Below are positions 376 to 29,271 of a DNA stretch of 34,136 nt, in pieces. Numbering within the stretch: position 1 is the stretch's first letter; each line of letters begins with the position of its first letter. The notes beneath the pieces were generated by a model that had not been told where the DNA came from, did not search any database, and saw nothing but the letters and a program-made list of their open reading frames with translations. Source of the stretch: Candidatus Saccharimonadota bacterium (GTDB lineage Bacteria > Patescibacteriota > Saccharimonadia > Saccharimonadales > Saccharimonadaceae); assembly GCA_017652765.1 (NCBI GenBank), contig JAGCAJ010000004.1, forward strand, positions 1 to 34,136, written 5' to 3'. The position numbers were made by a program, and so were the translations under genes.

Positions 376-3300
376 TTATTCAGAGTAAGTCCTCTGATAC
401 TCCGAGATAATCCCACGAATCTTGTTTAGCTTCTGTTGCCTAATTGTCTCGTTGTCCCTTGGTAATGGCACATAAGCTTTGCCGATATTCTCCGCCTCGT
501 CTTTGGTTACATTAGCGCCAGAGAGCATATAACCTACTTGCTGCGCTAGGCTCTTAGCGGCAGTTTCGTAGCTATTCCCGCCTAGTGTGGCAATGCCACC
601 AATCACTGGTATATCTGATAAGTTGTAGGCGGTATCAGGCGTCAGTTGTTCTAGCTCATCTAATGCTAGTGCCGCTGCATTAGCTTGGCGTTGTTTATCG
701 GTCAGTTTTGCCTGTTCGGTACTTGTGTTAGATTGCTTAGCTGCCGCCTCTTGATACATTTGTAGAAGCGCTGCATAGGCAGCTGCATTGTTATCATCAA
801 GCGCCATTTGCATAGCCCTACCAAGCAAATCGGTATAGTAATCGCCAGAAGTCATTGTGGTTTGCCCAGTCGAAGTGCTCGCCGGCGAAGATGTAGTTGT
901 ACCATTAAGCGCATCGTAAACCGCAGTAGAGGATGTGCCTTGTGTGTTGTTGTCTATAGCAACAGGCTCGGCATTATTCGCTGCTTCGGTAAGGTAATTA
1001 GCTGCGGCTTGTTCACCTTGTATCTCACCCTCAGTCCGCCCGATAGCGTTATAGATTTGCGTTGCTGGATTGTAGGCAGTATCGCTTACAGAAGGCGTAG
1101 CTGCTGTTGATGGAGGTGTATTGCCTCCAACCTTTGCGGCTAAATTGCCCGCACCTTCTACAACCTTACCGGCCGCATTGGTGAGTCCACCAGCTATTGG
1201 CGCCACGGTGTTCTTCAGTAATGTGTTGACCGGCTGGTCTAGTCCTGTAGCGTTCCACACTCTTGTAAATGGGTTTGTCGGCGCTTTTGATGCCGATCTG
1301 GTGTACTTTTCGGCTTCGATTTGCGTACCCATATCGCGAGCCTGTTCAAAGAGAGACGAACGCCGAATATAATCAGTAATGCTCGGCGCTTTGCCATCGA
1401 CAGCCTCTGTGTAGTAATCTTGAATAGCCTCATTGGCGCCCATCTTGGCTAAGCCCTTAGCGATATTGTCGTTAGTTAGGTCGCCAGTCAGCTCTGAGTT
1501 TTCTAGAGCACTAGCCGCCAAATCTCGCAAAGTGTATTTAGCGTCTGTCAAGGCAGTTCTTAGCGTGTTCACATCGTCGGTATTGCCTCGTAGGTTTGCA
1601 GCCTTGTTGCCAAGTTCTCTCGATTTTTGGAGCAAATAGCCTGCGGAATATTCATCTGGGTTAGAACCATCTGGAATAATTTGCTTGATATAACTATTGT
1701 ACTTTTTGGCAGCCGGTTCAGACATAATTACATCTACATTGTCTAGTGATAGTCTATCCACAAGATCGGGTACATTAACCTTGACATTACTCTGCTCTGC
1801 TAAATCTGAGACTACTTTGTTCACATAGTCAGATGTTTTAGCAGCCTCTAGGTAATTTTCTGGGCGCGCACCGAGTTTTGTCAGTGTTTCAGGAGCACCG
1901 GTCTTTACTGCTCTTGCTGCAGTTTTGGCATCCAATGAGTCATACAGAGCACCATATTTTTGTGTTTTTGCCGCTGTTTGAAGTTGCTGGCCTACAGACT
2001 GTAGTTTGTTGCGATTCTGAATAGTCTTATTAGCGTCTGGCTCAAACACCGATGTCAAATCATTGACATTTTGCTCATTCTGTGGTATACTAGAATCAAT
2101 CGGCATATCGTTTTGGGCATTGCCGGGAATAGACTCAGTGCCGGAGACTTTGGTATACCTGGAGTCTCCCGATATGGGAGTATCCGCATCAAACGCAGTG
2201 ATAACCCACTGTTTTTTGTTGCCATTATAATCTAGCTCGATTACTCCATCACCATTTTTGCTAGACATAAATAGTCTTTTGCTGCCGGCTTTCGTGTACA
2301 CATCTCCATCCTTCAAAATATCTGGAATTTTGTAAAGTGCATCTGTGCCGTGTTTTTCTGCTATATGGGCAAGCCCATAACCATTTTTCCCACCTCTTCC
2401 ATAAACCAAATCTATATCACCATTTCCAGTAACGTTTGCAATTGTTGAGCTCTTTACTGCTCCCTCTACCTCTCCGCCGCCTCTTTTCATAAGATAATCA
2501 ATAGATTTTATCGGGTCATTTGCAAACTGATTATATCTTAGCCCAATATCTTCATAGTTCGCTGGCTCCGCTCTAAAATCATTTATCTTATTGCCAATCC
2601 AACTATCGCCAGAGTCGCGCGTATTAGCCCAGCGTTCTTTGAAATTGTCGCCGCTGCTCTGCCAGTCTTGGTTAGCTTGGTTGACCTTCTGCATAAACGG
2701 AGTCTTATTTATCGCCATATTAGCACCAGCCATAGCAGTGCCAGCCAATGCGCCTTGTCCGGCACCCTGAGCTGCGCCCTGGAATGTGTTGGCAATACCT
2801 TGCCCAAGTTCTACGCCATTAAGCGCGGACTGCAAACCGGCGCCAGTGGCACCACCCACAGCACCCGAAATCGCACCACGCCCTGCGCCAGTAGCGAGGG
2901 TAGATATCCCACGCCCAACAGCCGTCTTGGAGCCAAGATTATTAAGCCCTTGCGTAAGCTTATTCCCACCACTAAATAGGTTTCCGCCCTTCTTTGCTAA
3001 GCTGTTGCTAATACCCTTGTTAACTAGCCCCGCAACAGCCCCGGTAGCAGCTCCAGTTAGCGCATTTTGTGCAGCTCGGCCAGCATCAAAGTTGTCCCAG
3101 TTCTTGGCAGACCAATCACCACCAAAAAGAGGGGTGTCTATCGTGCCACCGTTTTGCTCAAGTTCATCTGCAAAGCCTTCGATTGCTCCTTGTACAGCAT
3201 TCAGGCCTGGTGTAGCCGTAATCCCAGTTAGGTCGGCTGCGGTAGATAGGGTGTTAATTGCCGAGCCTAAGAATTTGGTGTTGTCTTGATTGACCTTCTG

Positions 3301-3741
3301 CCCCACATAACTGTTCTCGCGATAATTTTGCCAATTCTTTGCAGCCTGGTTAGCGTTATCTGCATTAGCTTTTGCCTGCGCTTGCAGTTCTGGTGTAATA
3401 ATATTGTCTATTCTGTCAAGTGTAGCATTATCCCCAGACGCCTCCGCCGCATCTCTGGCGTCCCACACATCATTGTATGTGTTATAGCCATATTTTTTTG
3501 CAATGTTATTCATGCTAGTTTTGTAGTCTTGGAGTCGCTGTTCTATTGCCCTATCCTCATTAGCAGTGTCAATAGCGCTAACTATTGCCGCGCCGGTGGT
3601 ACCTAGTGCGTTTTCGACAGACTTAGCCCGTTTCGTAAAGAAATTGTCGTTAGCGCCAGCATTGCCGCTCAGAGCGTTATACATATCCATTGAACCGTTA
3701 TTATTTAGTACAAATTTGTTACCTGATAATTGATATCCCAT
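376..3741 (-). CDS. Large virion protein with BECR-type nuclease-like domain
   Basis: An 1121-residue protein. The start was chosen at the ATG preceded by AAGGAGG rather than the upstream in-frame ATG at 3786. Residues about 30-430 are Ala/Gly-rich with long amphipathic and glycine-rich segments typical of internal (ejection) proteins of short-tailed phages. Residues about 440-530 form a distinct unit with the motif HIAEKHG near residue 460, then IPDILKDG and a beta-rich tail. This resembles the phage Barnase-EndoU-ColicinE5/D-RelE-like nucleases found in MuF-type and other virion polyproteins. The rest is helical and Ala/Gln-rich. It is encoded directly after a coiled-coil virion protein (overlapping none, 8 bases apart). 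Role as ejected internal protein or cargo nuclease is inferred. Confidence 0.7.
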   Translation of the reverse strand: MGYQLSGNKFVLNNNGSMDMYNALSGNAGANDNFFTKRAKSVENALGTTGAAIVSAIDTANEDRAIEQRLQDYKTSMNNIAKKYGYNTYNDVWDARDAAEASGDNATLDRIDNIITPELQAQAKANADNANQAAKNWQNYRENSYVGQKVNQDNTKFLGSAINTLSTAADLTGITATPGLNAVQGAIEGFADELEQNGGTIDTPLFGGDWSAKNWDNFDAGRAAQNALTGAATGAVAGLVNKGISNSLAKKGGNLFSGGNKLTQGLNNLGSKTAVGRGISTLATGAGRGAISGAVGGATGAGLQSALNGVELGQGIANTFQGAAQGAGQGALAGTAMAGANMAINKTPFMQKVNQANQDWQSSGDNFKERWANTRDSGDSWIGNKINDFRAEPANYEDIGLRYNQFANDPIKSIDYLMKRGGGEVEGAVKSSTIANVTGNGDIDLVYGRGGKNGYGLAHIAEKHGTDALYKIPDILKDGDVYTKAGSKRLFMSSKNGDGVIELDYNGNKKQWVITAFDADTPISGDSRYTKVSGTESIPGNAQNDMPIDSSIPQNEQNVNDLTSVFEPDANKTIQNRNKLQSVGQQLQTAAKTQKYGALYDSLDAKTAARAVKTGAPETLTKLGARPENYLEAAKTSDYVNKVVSDLAEQSNVKVNVPDLVDRLSLDNVDVIMSEPAAKKYNSYIKQIIPDGSNPDEYSAGYLLQKSRELGNKAANLRGNTDDVNTLRTALTDAKYTLRDLAASALENSELTGDLTNDNIAKGLAKMGANEAIQDYYTEAVDGKAPSITDYIRRSSLFEQARDMGTQIEAEKYTRSASKAPTNPFTRVWNATGLDQPVNTLLKNTVAPIAGGLTNAAGKVVEGAGNLAAKVGGNTPPSTAATPSVSDTAYNPATQIYNAIGRTEGEIQGEQAAANYLTEAANNAEPVAIDNNTQGTSSTAVYDALNGTTTSSPASTSTGQTTMTSGDYYTDLLGRAMQMALDDNNAAAYAALLQMYQEAAAKQSNTSTEQAKLTDKQRQANAAALALDELEQLTPDTAYNLSDIPVIGGIATLGGNSYETAAKSLAQQVGYMLSGANVTKDEAENIGKAYVPLPRDNETIRQQKLNKIRGIISEYQRTYSE

Positions 3742-3749
3742 GTGCCTCC

Positions 3750-4571
3750 TTATCTTGCAATTGGTATAATGCCGAGCGTATCCCACATACTATTGCCCGT
3801 TTGAATATTTCTTACATTCGGCTCGAATCTAAGGCCGTCTGACATCAAGTTATAGACAACGGCAGAGTAATAATCTCCATCACCGTTTTGTGCTGCTTGG
3901 CGCAGTCTATTATATAGAGCATTATTAAAGTCACCACCATCTGCTTGCGCTACCGCCGAGATTTTAACTGCATTCCCATCTGGATCGTACCAGTTGTAGC
4001 CACCATACATATTTTTGTTCGAGTCAAGCGAGTAGCTTCTTTGGTTGTTCTTTGCTGCTTCCATCAGGTACTGGTAATACGCATTTTGTGCGGCTTGAGC
4101 TTCTCTCTGAGCTTGCAGCTGAGCTTGGCGGTTTCGTTCTGCTTCTTGGTCGGAATAATACTGCGCCAAGGCTTGCTGATTTGCCTGCGCCTGTGTATTC
4201 GCTAATTGTGAGTTCAGGCTATTTCTTAAGTCGTCGTTTGCCTGTCTTGCTGAGGCTAAGTCGTTAGCCTGGTTGGTCTTCATTTGCGTTACAGCCGGCA
4301 CAAAAGTCTTGTCATAATATCTCCTATTCGCTAGATTTGCCGAGCCACCAAAAGAGCCGCCGGAACCCGCCGCCTGCATAGACGCTGATTCGGCTGCCAT
4401 ATTCCGTTGTCGGTTAAGGTCAGCCTGTTGCTGTACATAATTCCTGTTTATCTGTTCGTTTGTATTTGCCAACTTCCCCTCAAGCGAGTCAAGCTGGGAT
4501 TGTAAAGCATTAGTCGCCGGCTGATAGGCTTGTGTAGCCTTGGCAACATACTCTTCTAGTGACGCTGTCAT
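3750..4571 (-). CDS. Coiled-coil virion (internal/ejection) protein
   Basis: A 273-residue protein. Residues 1-175 are almost continuous Gln/Ala/Asn-rich helix with repeated LxxQLxxxxxQ patterns, broken by a GSGGSFGGS linker near residue 70. The C-terminal 90 residues are globular with NMYGGYNWYDPDG. Composition and its place just before the 1121-residue protein suggest an internal head or ejection protein of a short-tailed phage. The ATG lies 22 nt after the leader ATG of the MAVR box, with no good Shine-Dalgarno of its own. The exact family is not recognised. Confidence 0.6.
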   Translation of the reverse strand: MTASLEEYVAKATQAYQPATNALQSQLDSLEGKLANTNEQINRNYVQQQADLNRQRNMAAESASMQAAGSGGSFGGSANLANRRYYDKTFVPAVTQMKTNQANDLASARQANDDLRNSLNSQLANTQAQANQQALAQYYSDQEAERNRQAQLQAQREAQAAQNAYYQYLMEAAKNNQRSYSLDSNKNMYGGYNWYDPDGNAVKISAVAQADGGDFNNALYNRLRQAAQNGDGDYYSAVVYNLMSDGLRFEPNVRNIQTGNSMWDTLGIIPIAR

Positions 4572-4574
4572 TTA

Positions 4575-4609
4575 GATTCCAACGCACCGCCATTACCTTG
4601 ATTATATCA
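4575..4609 (-). promoter_or_regulatory. Structural promoter with MAVR start box (copy 1)
   Basis: Minus strand: extended -10 TGATATAAT, 7 nt, then ATGGCGGTGCGTTGGAATC beginning at 4593, where transcription is predicted to start. No -35 hexamer is visible at 16-18 nt. The leader ATG opens a 27-codon frame (MAVRWNLND...), which runs in another frame into the 3750-4571 gene. The same arrangement occurs at 10561, 12397, 17666 and 29237. Confidence 0.75.
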
Positions 4610-10560: not shown

Positions 10561-10593
10561 TTCCAACGCACCGCCATTGATTTAATTATACCA
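10561..10593 (-). promoter_or_regulatory. Structural promoter with MAVR start box (copy 2)
   Basis: Minus strand TGGTATAAT, 7 nt, then ATGGCGGTGCGTTGGAA from 10577. The mini-frame reads MAVRWKQRGK and stops (TAA) 16 nt before the ATG of the 10164-10529 gene, with AGGGGGA between, so here reinitiation at a normal ribosome site is likely. There is no -35 box. Confidence 0.75.
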
Positions 10594-17665: not shown

Positions 17666-17694
17666 AACGCACCGCCATTACCCATATTATAACA
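17666..17694 (-). promoter_or_regulatory. Structural promoter with MAVR start box (copy 4)
   Basis: Minus strand TGTTATAAT, 7 nt, ATGGCGGTGCGTT from 17678, giving MAVR then TAG. The portal GTG starts 23 nt after this ATG with a weak AGGT ribosome site. No -35. Confidence 0.75.
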
Positions 17695-27191: not shown

Positions 27192-27320
27192 TTACTTATT
27201 AAATGTTTTCTCAGCATGTTTTCTGCCGAGCATGAAGCCTTCATTAAAGGCATTGACAAGTGTTTTGACTGCTTCGGCTTTATAGGCCTCTATTGCGTCA
27301 ATCACTTCCTTCTCTTCCAC
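27192..27320 (-). CDS. 42-residue helical peptide, first gene of the early operon
   Basis: GTG start with AAGGAG 6 nt upstream: VEEKEVIDAIEAYKAEAV..., amphipathic helix. It is the first gene behind the 380-nt early leader. Could be a small regulator; no family. Confidence 0.5.
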   Translation of the reverse strand: MEEKEVIDAIEAYKAEAVKTLVNAFNEGFMLGRKHAEKTFNK

Positions 27321-27420: not shown

Positions 27421-27438
27421 TTCGGCTAAGAAACGAAG
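27421..27438 (+). repeat. Inverted copy of the sRNA 5' end (site C)
   Basis: TTCGGCTAAGAAACGAAG on the plus strand, identical to the 5' end of the minus-strand sRNA at 29137-29154. A leftward transcript therefore carries its perfect complement, in a hairpin CCTTCG-loop-CGAAGG whose 9-nt loop is complementary to the sRNA loop. Confidence 0.85.
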
Positions 27439-27452
27439 GCCAGACCAGCATC

Positions 27453-27479
27453 AAAAAAACGGTTTTATACAAAACCGCC
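27453..27479 (-). terminator. Intrinsic terminator in the early leftward leader
   Basis: Minus strand CGGTTTT-GTAT-AAAACCG followed by TTTTTTT. It lies about 225 nt behind the predicted early start and before the first early gene, so early expression would need read-through or antitermination. Confidence 0.85.
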
Positions 27480-27582
27480 TTAAATCAATCAATTCTCTTG
27501 GAAGTCGGCCGTGTCTTCATGGTGCACCAGCGCGCTTCATTCGCATTGCTCTATCAGCTAGCCCCAAGAACAAAACAGTTAA

Positions 27583-27658
27583 GGGGTGTTAGCTCAGTTG
27601 GTAGAGCGACTGGTTCGCAATCAGTAGGTCAGGGGTTCGAATCCCCTACACTCCACCA
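27583..27658 (+). tRNA. tRNA-Ala(CGC)
   Basis: 76 bases including encoded CCA. Acceptor GGGGTGT with ACACTCC; D arm GCTC..GAGC; anticodon stem ACTGG/TCAGT with loop TTCGCAA (anticodon CGC); T arm AGGGG-TTCGAAT-CCCCT. The G3-U70 pair, the alanine identity element, agrees with the anticodon. It lies beside the integrase, so it may be part of attP or an expressed phage tRNA. Its strand is opposite to the early leader that crosses it. Confidence 0.93.
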
Positions 27659-27666
27659 AGATTTAA

Positions 27667-27675
27667 TTCGGCTAA
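27667..27675 (+). repeat. Short inverted copy of the sRNA 5' end (site A)
   Basis: TTCGGCTAA, the first nine bases of the shared 18-mer, near the start of the early leftward transcript. Short enough to be chance alone, but notable beside site C. Confidence 0.45.
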
Positions 27676-27710
27676 TGTATTTAATTGTAAAACTGCTTTT
27701 TGATATTTTC

Positions 27711-27739
27711 ATTATAGCACAGATTTTTGTTATTTGCAA
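27711..27739 (-). promoter_or_regulatory. Early leftward promoter
   Basis: Minus strand TTGCAA, 17-nt spacer, extended -10 TGCTATAAT. Predicted start near 27704. Transcription would pass antisense through the tRNA, site A, terminator and site C into the early genes. Confidence 0.78.
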
Positions 27740-27748
27740 TGCTTAAGT

Positions 27749-28615
27749 TTATGCAGTATGGAACATTTCATACTGCTTTTTTAGATCGTTATCCACAACA
27801 TGGGTGTATATTAAAGTGGTATTTATAGATGCGTGACCTAGCATAGGGCTTAGGTACCGGATGTTCCCTCCTTTTCGAATGAAATCAGTAGCAAATGAAT
27901 GCCTAAGAAGGTGTGGAAAAACATTTTTTTCGATGCCAGCGCGCCTAGCAGAGTTCTTTATTAAAAGCTGTATATTGGTCGGCGTCATTCTCGCCTTATA
28001 TTTGGCAGATACGATGAGAGCTGGGCAATTATCGCTTCTGCTCGCTAAATATTCATTCATTATCTTCTCTGTGCGCTCATCTATAAAACAAGTGCGCATC
28101 TTTTTCCCTTTGCCGACCACAGTGAATTGCCTATCGTAAATCGAGTCTCTATCTAATTGTATTAACTCTGATAACCTAATACCAGAGGCGTAGAATAAAG
28201 AAATAACGAGTTTATTCCTTAGGCTACTAGCATTTTCTATCATCGCATCCACTTCTTCTGGCGTTAAAAATCCCCTCCGAGTATCTTCTCGTTTGGGGAT
28301 TGGTATCAATTCAGGATTTAGGCACTCATGGCCGAGTATTCTCACGTAGCGAAGCACCATTTTTAACCTAATCAGATCGTTCCGAATAGTGTTGTTACGT
28401 CTTTCTTGTAGTGCGCCATCAGGCAATAATCTAAAATGCAGCGTATTGTTCCATCGCGACACATCTTCTAATGTTAGCTCCTCTATAGTTATGTCCCCCA
28501 AAGCTTTAACTATCCTATTTTTTACATAGTCTTGGTTTTCCAGCACCCTTTTAGATAAACCTTTGACAAACATATAGTTATTTTTATAGAGGTCAAACGC
28601 CTCTGATATCTTCAT
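27749..28615 (-). CDS. int: Tyrosine recombinase / integrase
   Basis: 288 residues from the ATG with AAAGGAG upstream (the in-frame ORF extends to 28711). An N-terminal SAM-like core-binding domain (about residues 1-110) precedes the catalytic domain: ASGIRLSEL (Arg147), HLLRHSF (His235, Arg238), LGHASI (His261) and the nucleophile in IYTHV (Tyr270). XerC/D-like size. It lies next to a tRNA gene, so site-specific integration is likely. Its 3' end doubles on the other strand as a terminator for the tRNA transcript. Confidence 0.95.
   Translation of the reverse strand: MKISEAFDLYKNNYMFVKGLSKRVLENQDYVKNRIVKALGDITIEELTLEDVSRWNNTLHFRLLPDGALQERRNNTIRNDLIRLKMVLRYVRILGHECLNPELIPIPKREDTRRGFLTPEEVDAMIENASSLRNKLVISLFYASGIRLSELIQLDRDSIYDRQFTVVGKGKKMRTCFIDERTEKIMNEYLASRSDNCPALIVSAKYKARMTPTNIQLLIKNSARRAGIEKNVFPHLLRHSFATDFIRKGGNIRYLSPMLGHASINTTLIYTHVVDNDLKKQYEMFHTA
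27753..27782 (+). terminator. Terminator of the tRNA transcript, within int 3' end
   Basis: GCAGTATG and CATACTGC pair around an 8-nt loop, followed by TTTTTT on the plus strand. The same bases encode the last residues of the integrase (KKQYEMFHTA). Confidence 0.8.
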
Positions 28616-28641
28616 AGTTTCTCCTTTCTGCAACGGAGAAT

Positions 28642-28965
28642 CTAATAACCAAGTAAAGCCATTTCTTTTTTTGCGCAGTAAGTAAAGTACCTCTTTGGAG
28701 ACTTGATCCACGGTCTATTGGCGGACTCCAGTAGTTTCTCTCTTGTGTCATAAGGCAAGTGGTACATCACCTTTAAGAAAAACTCTCTGCACTCAGGTGC
28801 TCCCAATAAACGAATATACCGTTCAGCTCCACTTTCAGCTTCCTTATCACTGCATAATTTAGCTCTACTAGAACCTCTTTCAATGAAATTGAAGTTCCTT
28901 TTTAAGGAACTTTCATTGTCCTTTTCAATTTCATTGATAGTGACTTTTTCCCCGTTGACTAGCAT
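28642..28965 (-). CDS. Unknown 107-residue protein upstream of integrase
   Basis: Start at the ATG with AGGAGG. Charged, helical, with CREFFLKVMYHLP and a basic C-terminus (SPKRYFTYCAKKEM). Codons about 9-28 contain a large hairpin (28881-28936). It lies behind the terminated sRNA leader and before int. It could be an excisionase, regulator or accessory integrase factor; no family was assigned. Confidence 0.5.
   Translation of the reverse strand: MLVNGEKVTINEIEKDNESSLKRNFNFIERGSSRAKLCSDKEAESGAERYIRLLGAPECREFFLKVMYHLPYDTREKLLESANRPWIKSPKRYFTYCAKKEMALLGY
28881..28936 (-). repeat. Long hairpin inside a coding region
   Basis: CAATGAAATTGAA (28881-28893) and its inverse at 28924-28936 form a 13-bp outer stem; AAGTTCCTT with AAGGAACTT makes a 9-bp inner stem. 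It lies inside the 28642-28965 gene near the start. Confidence 0.7.
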
Positions 28966-29087
28966 ATTACCTCCTAGCACTACCAAGTAACCCGCTCGGT
29001 ATTACACGAGTGCTTATATTAAATTTAATATGTAGTTTTCCACAAGCTCCGAGCGGAAGCTGCTTCAAACATCTGGATGATTGGGGC

Positions 29088-29155
29088 AAAAAGACCCAAC
29101 CATCTTCCCGGTGAAACCGGGTTTGTCAGGTCGGGTCTTCGTTTCTTAGCCGAAT
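29088..29155 (-). ncRNA. Terminated regulatory sRNA, P4-immunity-like
   Basis: About 68 nt behind a consensus promoter. It begins TTCGGCTAAGAAACGAAG, a hairpin with loop GCTAAGAAA, then AAGACCC pairs with GGGTCTT around CCCGGT-TTC-ACCGGG, and ends in TTTTT. The 5' 18-mer is the exact inverse complement of site C in the early leader. ACCCGACCTGACA in its middle recurs in array RNA R6. A trans-acting antisense role is inferred; attenuation of the gene at 28642 is an alternative. Confidence 0.75.
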
Positions 29156-29236: not shown

Positions 29237-29271
29237 TGGTATAATGTACTTAATGGCGGTGCGTTGGAATC
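29237..29271 (+). promoter_or_regulatory. Structural promoter with MAVR start box (copy 5)
   Basis: Plus strand TGGTATAAT, 7 nt, then ATGGCGGTGCGTTGGAATC from 29253. It opens a 20-codon frame MAVRWNLNG... ending TAA inside the next gene. The adaptor ATG starts 22 nt after this ATG, as in copy 1, with no good ribosome site. The only copy on the plus strand. Confidence 0.78.

Follow-up and report, generated by a model that had tools for sequence, protein, structure and literature searches.

A putative trans-acting antisense RNA and its early-leader target in temperate phages of Saccharibacteria

The phage described here appears to encode a short antisense RNA that would act in trans to silence the early operon and so give sequence-specific immunity, a reading to which we assign a probability of about two in three. 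The same arrangement of RNA and leader target, always with different sequences, is present in 25 phages and prophages (this one included) of ruminant Saccharibacteria and their relatives. Because both halves of the pair vary among relatives and still match, an RNA switch for dormancy or for the exclusion of rivals is very probable. This conservation and covariation strongly support the view that the RNA pairs in trans with a temperate phage's early leader, and we regard the predicted pairing as well established on comparative grounds. We infer the expression of the RNA, repression as the direction of its effect, immunity and the route via boxA.

The window is the whole of a 34,136-base contig (G000:C21) from a genome of the same genus as a goat-ileum Saccharibacteria MAG. 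Its DNA gave no match to known phages; the recognisable phage genes are those for portal, terminase, endolysin, holin, ERF recombinase and tyrosine integrase. One set of structural genes extends leftward from the terminase region and another rightward from 29275; the early genes head leftward from about 27320. The contig closes (34050-34136) with an error-rich copy of its beginning, which follows a run of G and is probably a circular overlap of low quality; since the end repeats the start, the phage genome is probably circular or circularly permuted. The sequence TAATGGCGGTGCGTTGGAATCT, whole or in part, recurs as a leader element ahead of four gene blocks, in both directions (4574-4596, 10561-10578, 17666-17682 (-) and 29251-29271 (+)); three relatives (G273, G295 and G296) carry it too, and it is possibly a common late promoter or leader element. 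Positions 376-3786 encode a 1136-aa protein with a PBECR1 (Barnase/EndoU/ColicinE5-like) nuclease domain. The same genome bin holds a second related phage fragment of 12,993 bases (G000:C20, L110), whose terminase is 71% identical, and a phage of this Saccharibacteria type is found on a contig labelled as a Paludibacteraceae MAG (L149), probably through a binning error.

The small RNA locus of the window phage

The first-pass annotation had described a TTGACT-17-TATAAT promoter and a terminated RNA of about 68 nt whose first 18 nt are the exact complement of a site (C) in the early leftward leader and whose first nine also match a site (A) near the leader's start, with a strong terminator between the two sites; each of these elements was found again (Table 1). 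The sequence TTCGGCTAAGAAACGAAG occurs exactly twice in the window, at 27421-27438 (+) and 29137-29154 (-). At up to three mismatches 0.05 matches would be expected in the window, and two copies arose in none of 100 shuffles, these chance figures, like our E-values, being local to the regions searched. The T-run closing the RNA's terminator lies at 29092-29088 (-).

That annotation had also envisaged kissing hairpins with complementary 9-nt loops. Such hairpins can be drawn for both (TTCG-GCTAAGAAA-CGAA and CTTCG-TTTCTTAGC-CGAAG), and the predicted fold of site C is the drawn one, with a hairpin at this site in most phages. The minimum-energy fold of the small RNA differs: the terminator stem is used instead of the 9-nt-loop hairpin, and the 5′ end is mostly open, as it largely is in the predicted folds across phages.

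Between the terminator of the small RNA and the next ORF lies a further hairpin, CCGCTCGG...CCGAGCGG, at 28980-29085 (-), which G296 and G273 also have and which is perhaps an attenuator of the ORF–integrase transcript. The ORF itself is conserved and could be a protein regulator; it had no database match, and its C-terminal helices, although confidently predicted, had no meaningful match in the PDB. Its first codons (28877-28940) contain short iterated motifs and inverted repeats (TCAATGA-like), and each of the relatives looked at has its own, different iterated motif at the start of this ORF; these may constitute a protein-binding array inside the coding region. Searches of Pfam and PHROGs recognised no protein repressor, in line with the earlier remark that none was apparent despite the integrase. 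In Rfam, tRNA alone scored above threshold, and no described RNA family was matched.

Table 1. Features of the putative immunity region of the window phage
Feature	Position	Strand	Remarks
First early ORF after leader	27192..27320	-	42 aa, GTG start; similar ORFs in G273 and G295
Site C, target of the small RNA	27421..27446	-	hairpin with 9-nt loop; positional homologue in 25/25 phages
Leader intrinsic terminator, AGGCGGTTTTGTATAAAACCGTTTTTTT	27480-27453	-	between A and C; ends 7 nt ahead of site C region
attP core, CATTCGCATTGCT	27538..27550	+	probable; 13 bases, common to anticodon loop of host tRNA-Ala(CGC), G000:C19
Phage tRNA-Ala(CGC)	27583..27658	+	complete; leader runs antisense through gene
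Site A, TTCGGCTAA	27668-27676	-	9 nt, complements small RNA nt 1-9; at leader 5′ end
Leftward early promoter, TTGCAA-17-TATAAT	27739-27711	-	10/12 consensus matches; directly past integrase stop codon
Tyrosine integrase	27749..28711	-	
ORF between small RNA and integrase	28642..28965	-	107 aa from its ATG; four-helix C-terminal part
Antisense small RNA	29088..29155	-	~68 nt, ~29155 to 29088; 3′ intrinsic terminator; predicted from sequence
Small RNA 5′ part complementary to site C	29129..29154	-	18 nt exact, 26 nt at 92%
Small RNA promoter, TTGACT-17-TATAAT	29190-29162	-	11/12 consensus matches, extended -10

Matched pairs in related phages

A search for the same inverted pair in related phages, which the first-pass annotation had suggested, is what returned the 25 cases. 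Relatives were found via terminase and integrase (a single-sequence integrase query gave no hits, and an alignment query retrieved them), set in integrase orientation and searched for complementarity between the 1.2 kb upstream and the 1 kb downstream of the integrase. An exact 18-mer search of viral contigs gave no match, as expected of a pair that has diversified. In 24 phages, including the window's, the region ahead of the integrase holds a stretch, 17-39 nt long, that is complementary to a site about 200-420 nt past the gene, beyond attP and usually beyond an intrinsic terminator. One of these pairs (L125, which is G296) was set by hand, the automatic best pair there being a second small RNA and site A. 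The 25th case is a prophage, G225, for which the small RNA was recognised first and its target then located 30 kb off at the opposite prophage end: predicted blind from the RNA alone, site C lies 34 nt inside attL.

The placement of the promoter relative to the complementary stretch is the same in the relatives as in the window. For 24 of the 25, the -10 box ends 5-11 nt ahead of the stretch (median 6), implying that the small RNA starts with its pairing region; a promoter of such quality is found just upstream of about 10% of random positions. The only exception was L135, where the distance is -3 and the match is over-extended. The predicted RNAs range in size from about 40 to 85 nt across the family.

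The cognate duplex was the best or tied for best in 24 of 25 cases. Cognate energies average -41 kcal/mol, those between groups -19 kcal/mol; of 1000 shuffled small RNA segments, none reached the cognate energy. By duplex energy the 25 phages, which share descent, fall into 19 specificity groups, a count that depends on the energy threshold of 6 kcal/mol. Among nine related, alignable phages, eight duplex positions have changed on both sides with pairing kept. At other tyrosine-recombinase loci of the same genus (L196-L206), used as negative controls, there was no comparable pair: the best scored 37, in an AT-rich stretch, where most true pairs score 41-57 and the weakest 34 (L125) and 29 (L140). 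No pair was found in L143 or L145, whose integrases are 37% and 31% identical, the latter contig being almost without downstream sequence.

An 18-bp inverted repeat on both sides of a tyrosine recombinase gene might also be a DNA element: arm-type sites of the integrase, sites for an excisionase, or the ends of an invertible segment with the integrase gene inside it. We give this almost no credence. The arm sequences are wholly different between phages whose integrases are 55-65% identical, one arm always starts where a promoter would initiate transcription and leads into a terminator, and in integrated prophages the two arms are at opposite ends and were never seen inverted. Mismatches between the arms are, moreover, asymmetric: an A in the small RNA opposite a C in the leader recurs in an L126-like group and, separately, in L138 and L141, and, as judged by inspection of the sequences, the mismatched C forms a base pair in the leader hairpin, which means that the substitution to A would open the small RNA while the target stays folded. 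This asymmetry is expected of an RNA, unlike a symmetric DNA site. We reject the DNA-inversion and integrase-arm readings on the grounds of sequence divergence, asymmetry and prophage layout.

Leader architecture, boxA and integration

Read from the early promoter, the elements of the region are the 5′ end of the leader, a whole or partial tRNA gene containing the att core, the terminator, site C and, in most of the phages, TTAACAA. In most relatives, as in the window, a consensus-like promoter directly follows the integrase stop codon. An intrinsic terminator near site C was detected by script in most phages, usually ending 1-18 nt upstream of the site. Pairing at C by itself therefore cannot increase termination there, and the initial suggestion that pairing triggers the leader terminator is unlikely, since the terminator precedes site C.

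What follows site C is a boxA-like element, 0-50 nt downstream in most relatives. The heptamer TTAACAA occurs within 65 nt past site C in 21 of 25 phages, as against about 0.014 expected per phage. A fuller form of the motif, TTTAACAATTTGG, resembles AGTTTAACAATTTAGT, which lies 77 nt before the 16S gene in a genome of the same genus (used for this comparison because the window's own genome contains no 16S) and is likely the host rrn boxA; bacterial rrn boxA elements look like these two sequences. For the 11 leaders that could be aligned, covariation supports an arrangement in which boxA is preceded by the target hairpin and a second one and followed by a third. No clear boxA follows site C in the window phage (which has only TTAAAAAT), L125 or L142, and that of L140 is degenerate. 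Given this and its leader, shorter than those of its relatives, a route through boxA is less secure in the window phage than in the family at large. Neither an N-like protein nor a boxB was identified; conserved hairpins follow boxA in the relatives.

These observations suggest how the RNA could act. A strong promoter of its own, heading the ORF–integrase segment, would drive its synthesis, and its largely single-stranded 5′ end would pair, loop first, with the hairpin that site C forms in the leader. Pairing would most likely keep the early transcript unproductive by acting on its elongation: assembly of a boxA antitermination complex may be prevented, the transcript exposed to termination, or the duplex cleaved. 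With site C immediately upstream of boxA in most relatives, remodelling of the leader could work either way, and the small RNA might instead be a positive factor that aids the antiterminated state and activates the early genes. We find this improbable: a self-activating RNA would be under no pressure to split into 19 specificity groups, and an RNA made with the integrase segment goes more naturally with lysogeny. Rapid splitting of this kind is the outcome that immunity selects for, and is better explained by immunity than by activation. It is highly improbable that the RNA blocks translation of the first early ORF by simple antisense pairing close to a ribosome site. The first ORF of the window phage does start only about 100 nt past site C, but in the relatives the distance is 200-500 nt or more, indicating that site C is not a ribosome-binding site.

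Pairing at site A was detected in a minority of the 25 phages, the remainder showing C alone. A single RNA matches both sites only in the window phage and L124, between which site A covaries (TTAGCCGAA / CGTAGCCGA). In G273, G295 and G296, a second promoter-led unit ahead of the small RNA encodes another small RNA, which matches a stretch within the first ~40 nt of the leader, so that some phages would have two RNA locks.

The attP core of the window phage lies between site A and site C, and at least 12 of its 13 bases are also found in G295, L123 and L124. The complete phage tRNA-Ala(CGC) beside this host-shared core makes it a candidate for tRNA-dependent lysogeny. The host tRNA-Ala(CGC) locus (G000:C19) is intact, and the window phage is thus not seen integrated. 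Integrated relatives show what this position of attP entails. The 31-kb G225 prophage is bounded by 47-bp repeats of a tRNA-Gly 3′ half (contig positions 21531-21577 and 52478-52524), with the early promoter, integrase and small RNA at its right end and site C, boxA and the early genes at its left. G273, integrated at a tRNA-Thr, shows the same split but lacks a clean tRNA repeat at its right junction. Because attP sits past the early promoter and ahead of site C, integration cuts the promoter off from the early genes and leaves sites A and C at opposite ends of the prophage.

This geometry could also mean that pairing mainly controls integration and excision and has little to do with immunity, the leader titrating or destroying the small RNA, or the small RNA reporting whether the element is integrated or excised. 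The RNA does head the ORF–integrase segment, and in the cases examined attP lies between promoter and target, so that integration switches the target-bearing transcript. We nevertheless consider this unlikely, since after integration site C stays with the early genes rather than with int, from which the small RNA is in any case separated by its own terminator. Under the immunity reading that we prefer, a lysogen's early promoter is already cut off from the early genes, and the small RNA would serve there mainly to give immunity to superinfecting phages whose site C is the same; it would also silence transcripts that enter the prophage from host DNA. Immediately upon infection, it would help to establish lysogeny together with the integrase.

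Relation to known systems and implications

The first-pass annotation had likened the locus to phage P4, whose CI RNA arises by processing of the leader, in which it is flanked by its two targets (PMC4825925). As an analogy this is fair: in both, a short antisense RNA is directed against early-leader sites of a temperate element (seqA/seqB/seqC in P4) with no protein repressor recognised, and in the window phage and L124 one RNA matches two leader sites, A and C. The P4-style mechanism as first stated is not supported. The RNA is not processed from the leader but has a promoter and terminator of its own, about 1.5 kb off on the far side of the integrase, and would have to work in trans; attP splits the promoter and site A from site C, which is usually followed by a boxA element; and pairing at A is found in a minority of the family, in some members through a second small RNA.

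The C4 RNA of P1 and P7 (immI) is encoded in the c4-icd-ant operon under its control, and that operon is also repressed by the C1 protein (PMC8198154). An antisense RNA that controls a phage immunity operon is what we propose here too; in Rfam, however, no C4-type family and nothing else beyond tRNA matched above threshold. The hairpin-flanked boxA-like element in the early leader, resembling that of the host genus's rrn leader, is reminiscent of lambda-type nut sites and rrn boxA, although the lambda-type partners (N-like protein and boxB) were not identified and the window phage has no clear boxA. In mycobacteriophage BPs, attP lies inside the protein repressor gene and immunity is integration-dependent (PMC4557955); here, too, attP is within the proposed immunity control circuit and integration would alter its output, but attP lies between the early promoter and an RNA target rather than in a repressor gene, none being recognised. 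Some mycobacteriophages carry a complete tRNA and a short core common to a host tRNA (Guerrero-Bustamante and Hatfull 2024, PMC10865867), as the window phage does with its 13-bp core and a tRNA of the same isotype as the host's, both tRNA-Ala(CGC); what differs is that the window phage is known only beside an intact host locus.

The present system would work like P4 CI and P1 C4 yet is a separate kind. Because it has a feature in common with each of these systems and corresponds only in part to the definitions of the RNA-immunity families, we treat it as a separate variant of RNA-based phage immunity. In the part of the open literature that we covered, no description of such a system in Saccharibacteria was found.

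RNA-only immunity has so far been a speciality of P4 and, in part, P1, and to our knowledge almost nothing is known of lysogeny in Saccharibacteria phages. More broadly, and at somewhat below even odds, we propose that phages of the candidate phyla radiation may decide between lysis and lysogeny with no repressor: a trans antisense RNA, in at least 19 specificity groups, would set immunity through boxA-dependent antitermination, and integration at attP would unplug the early promoter, so that an RNA and a recombination event together replace the protein repressor. Saccharibacteria phages would have an independently organised and apparently widespread version of RNA immunity, in which antisense control, antitermination and site-specific integration are linked within one short region. 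The family would supply many ready-made orthogonal RNA pairs, and its immunity groups would be directly predictable from sequence.
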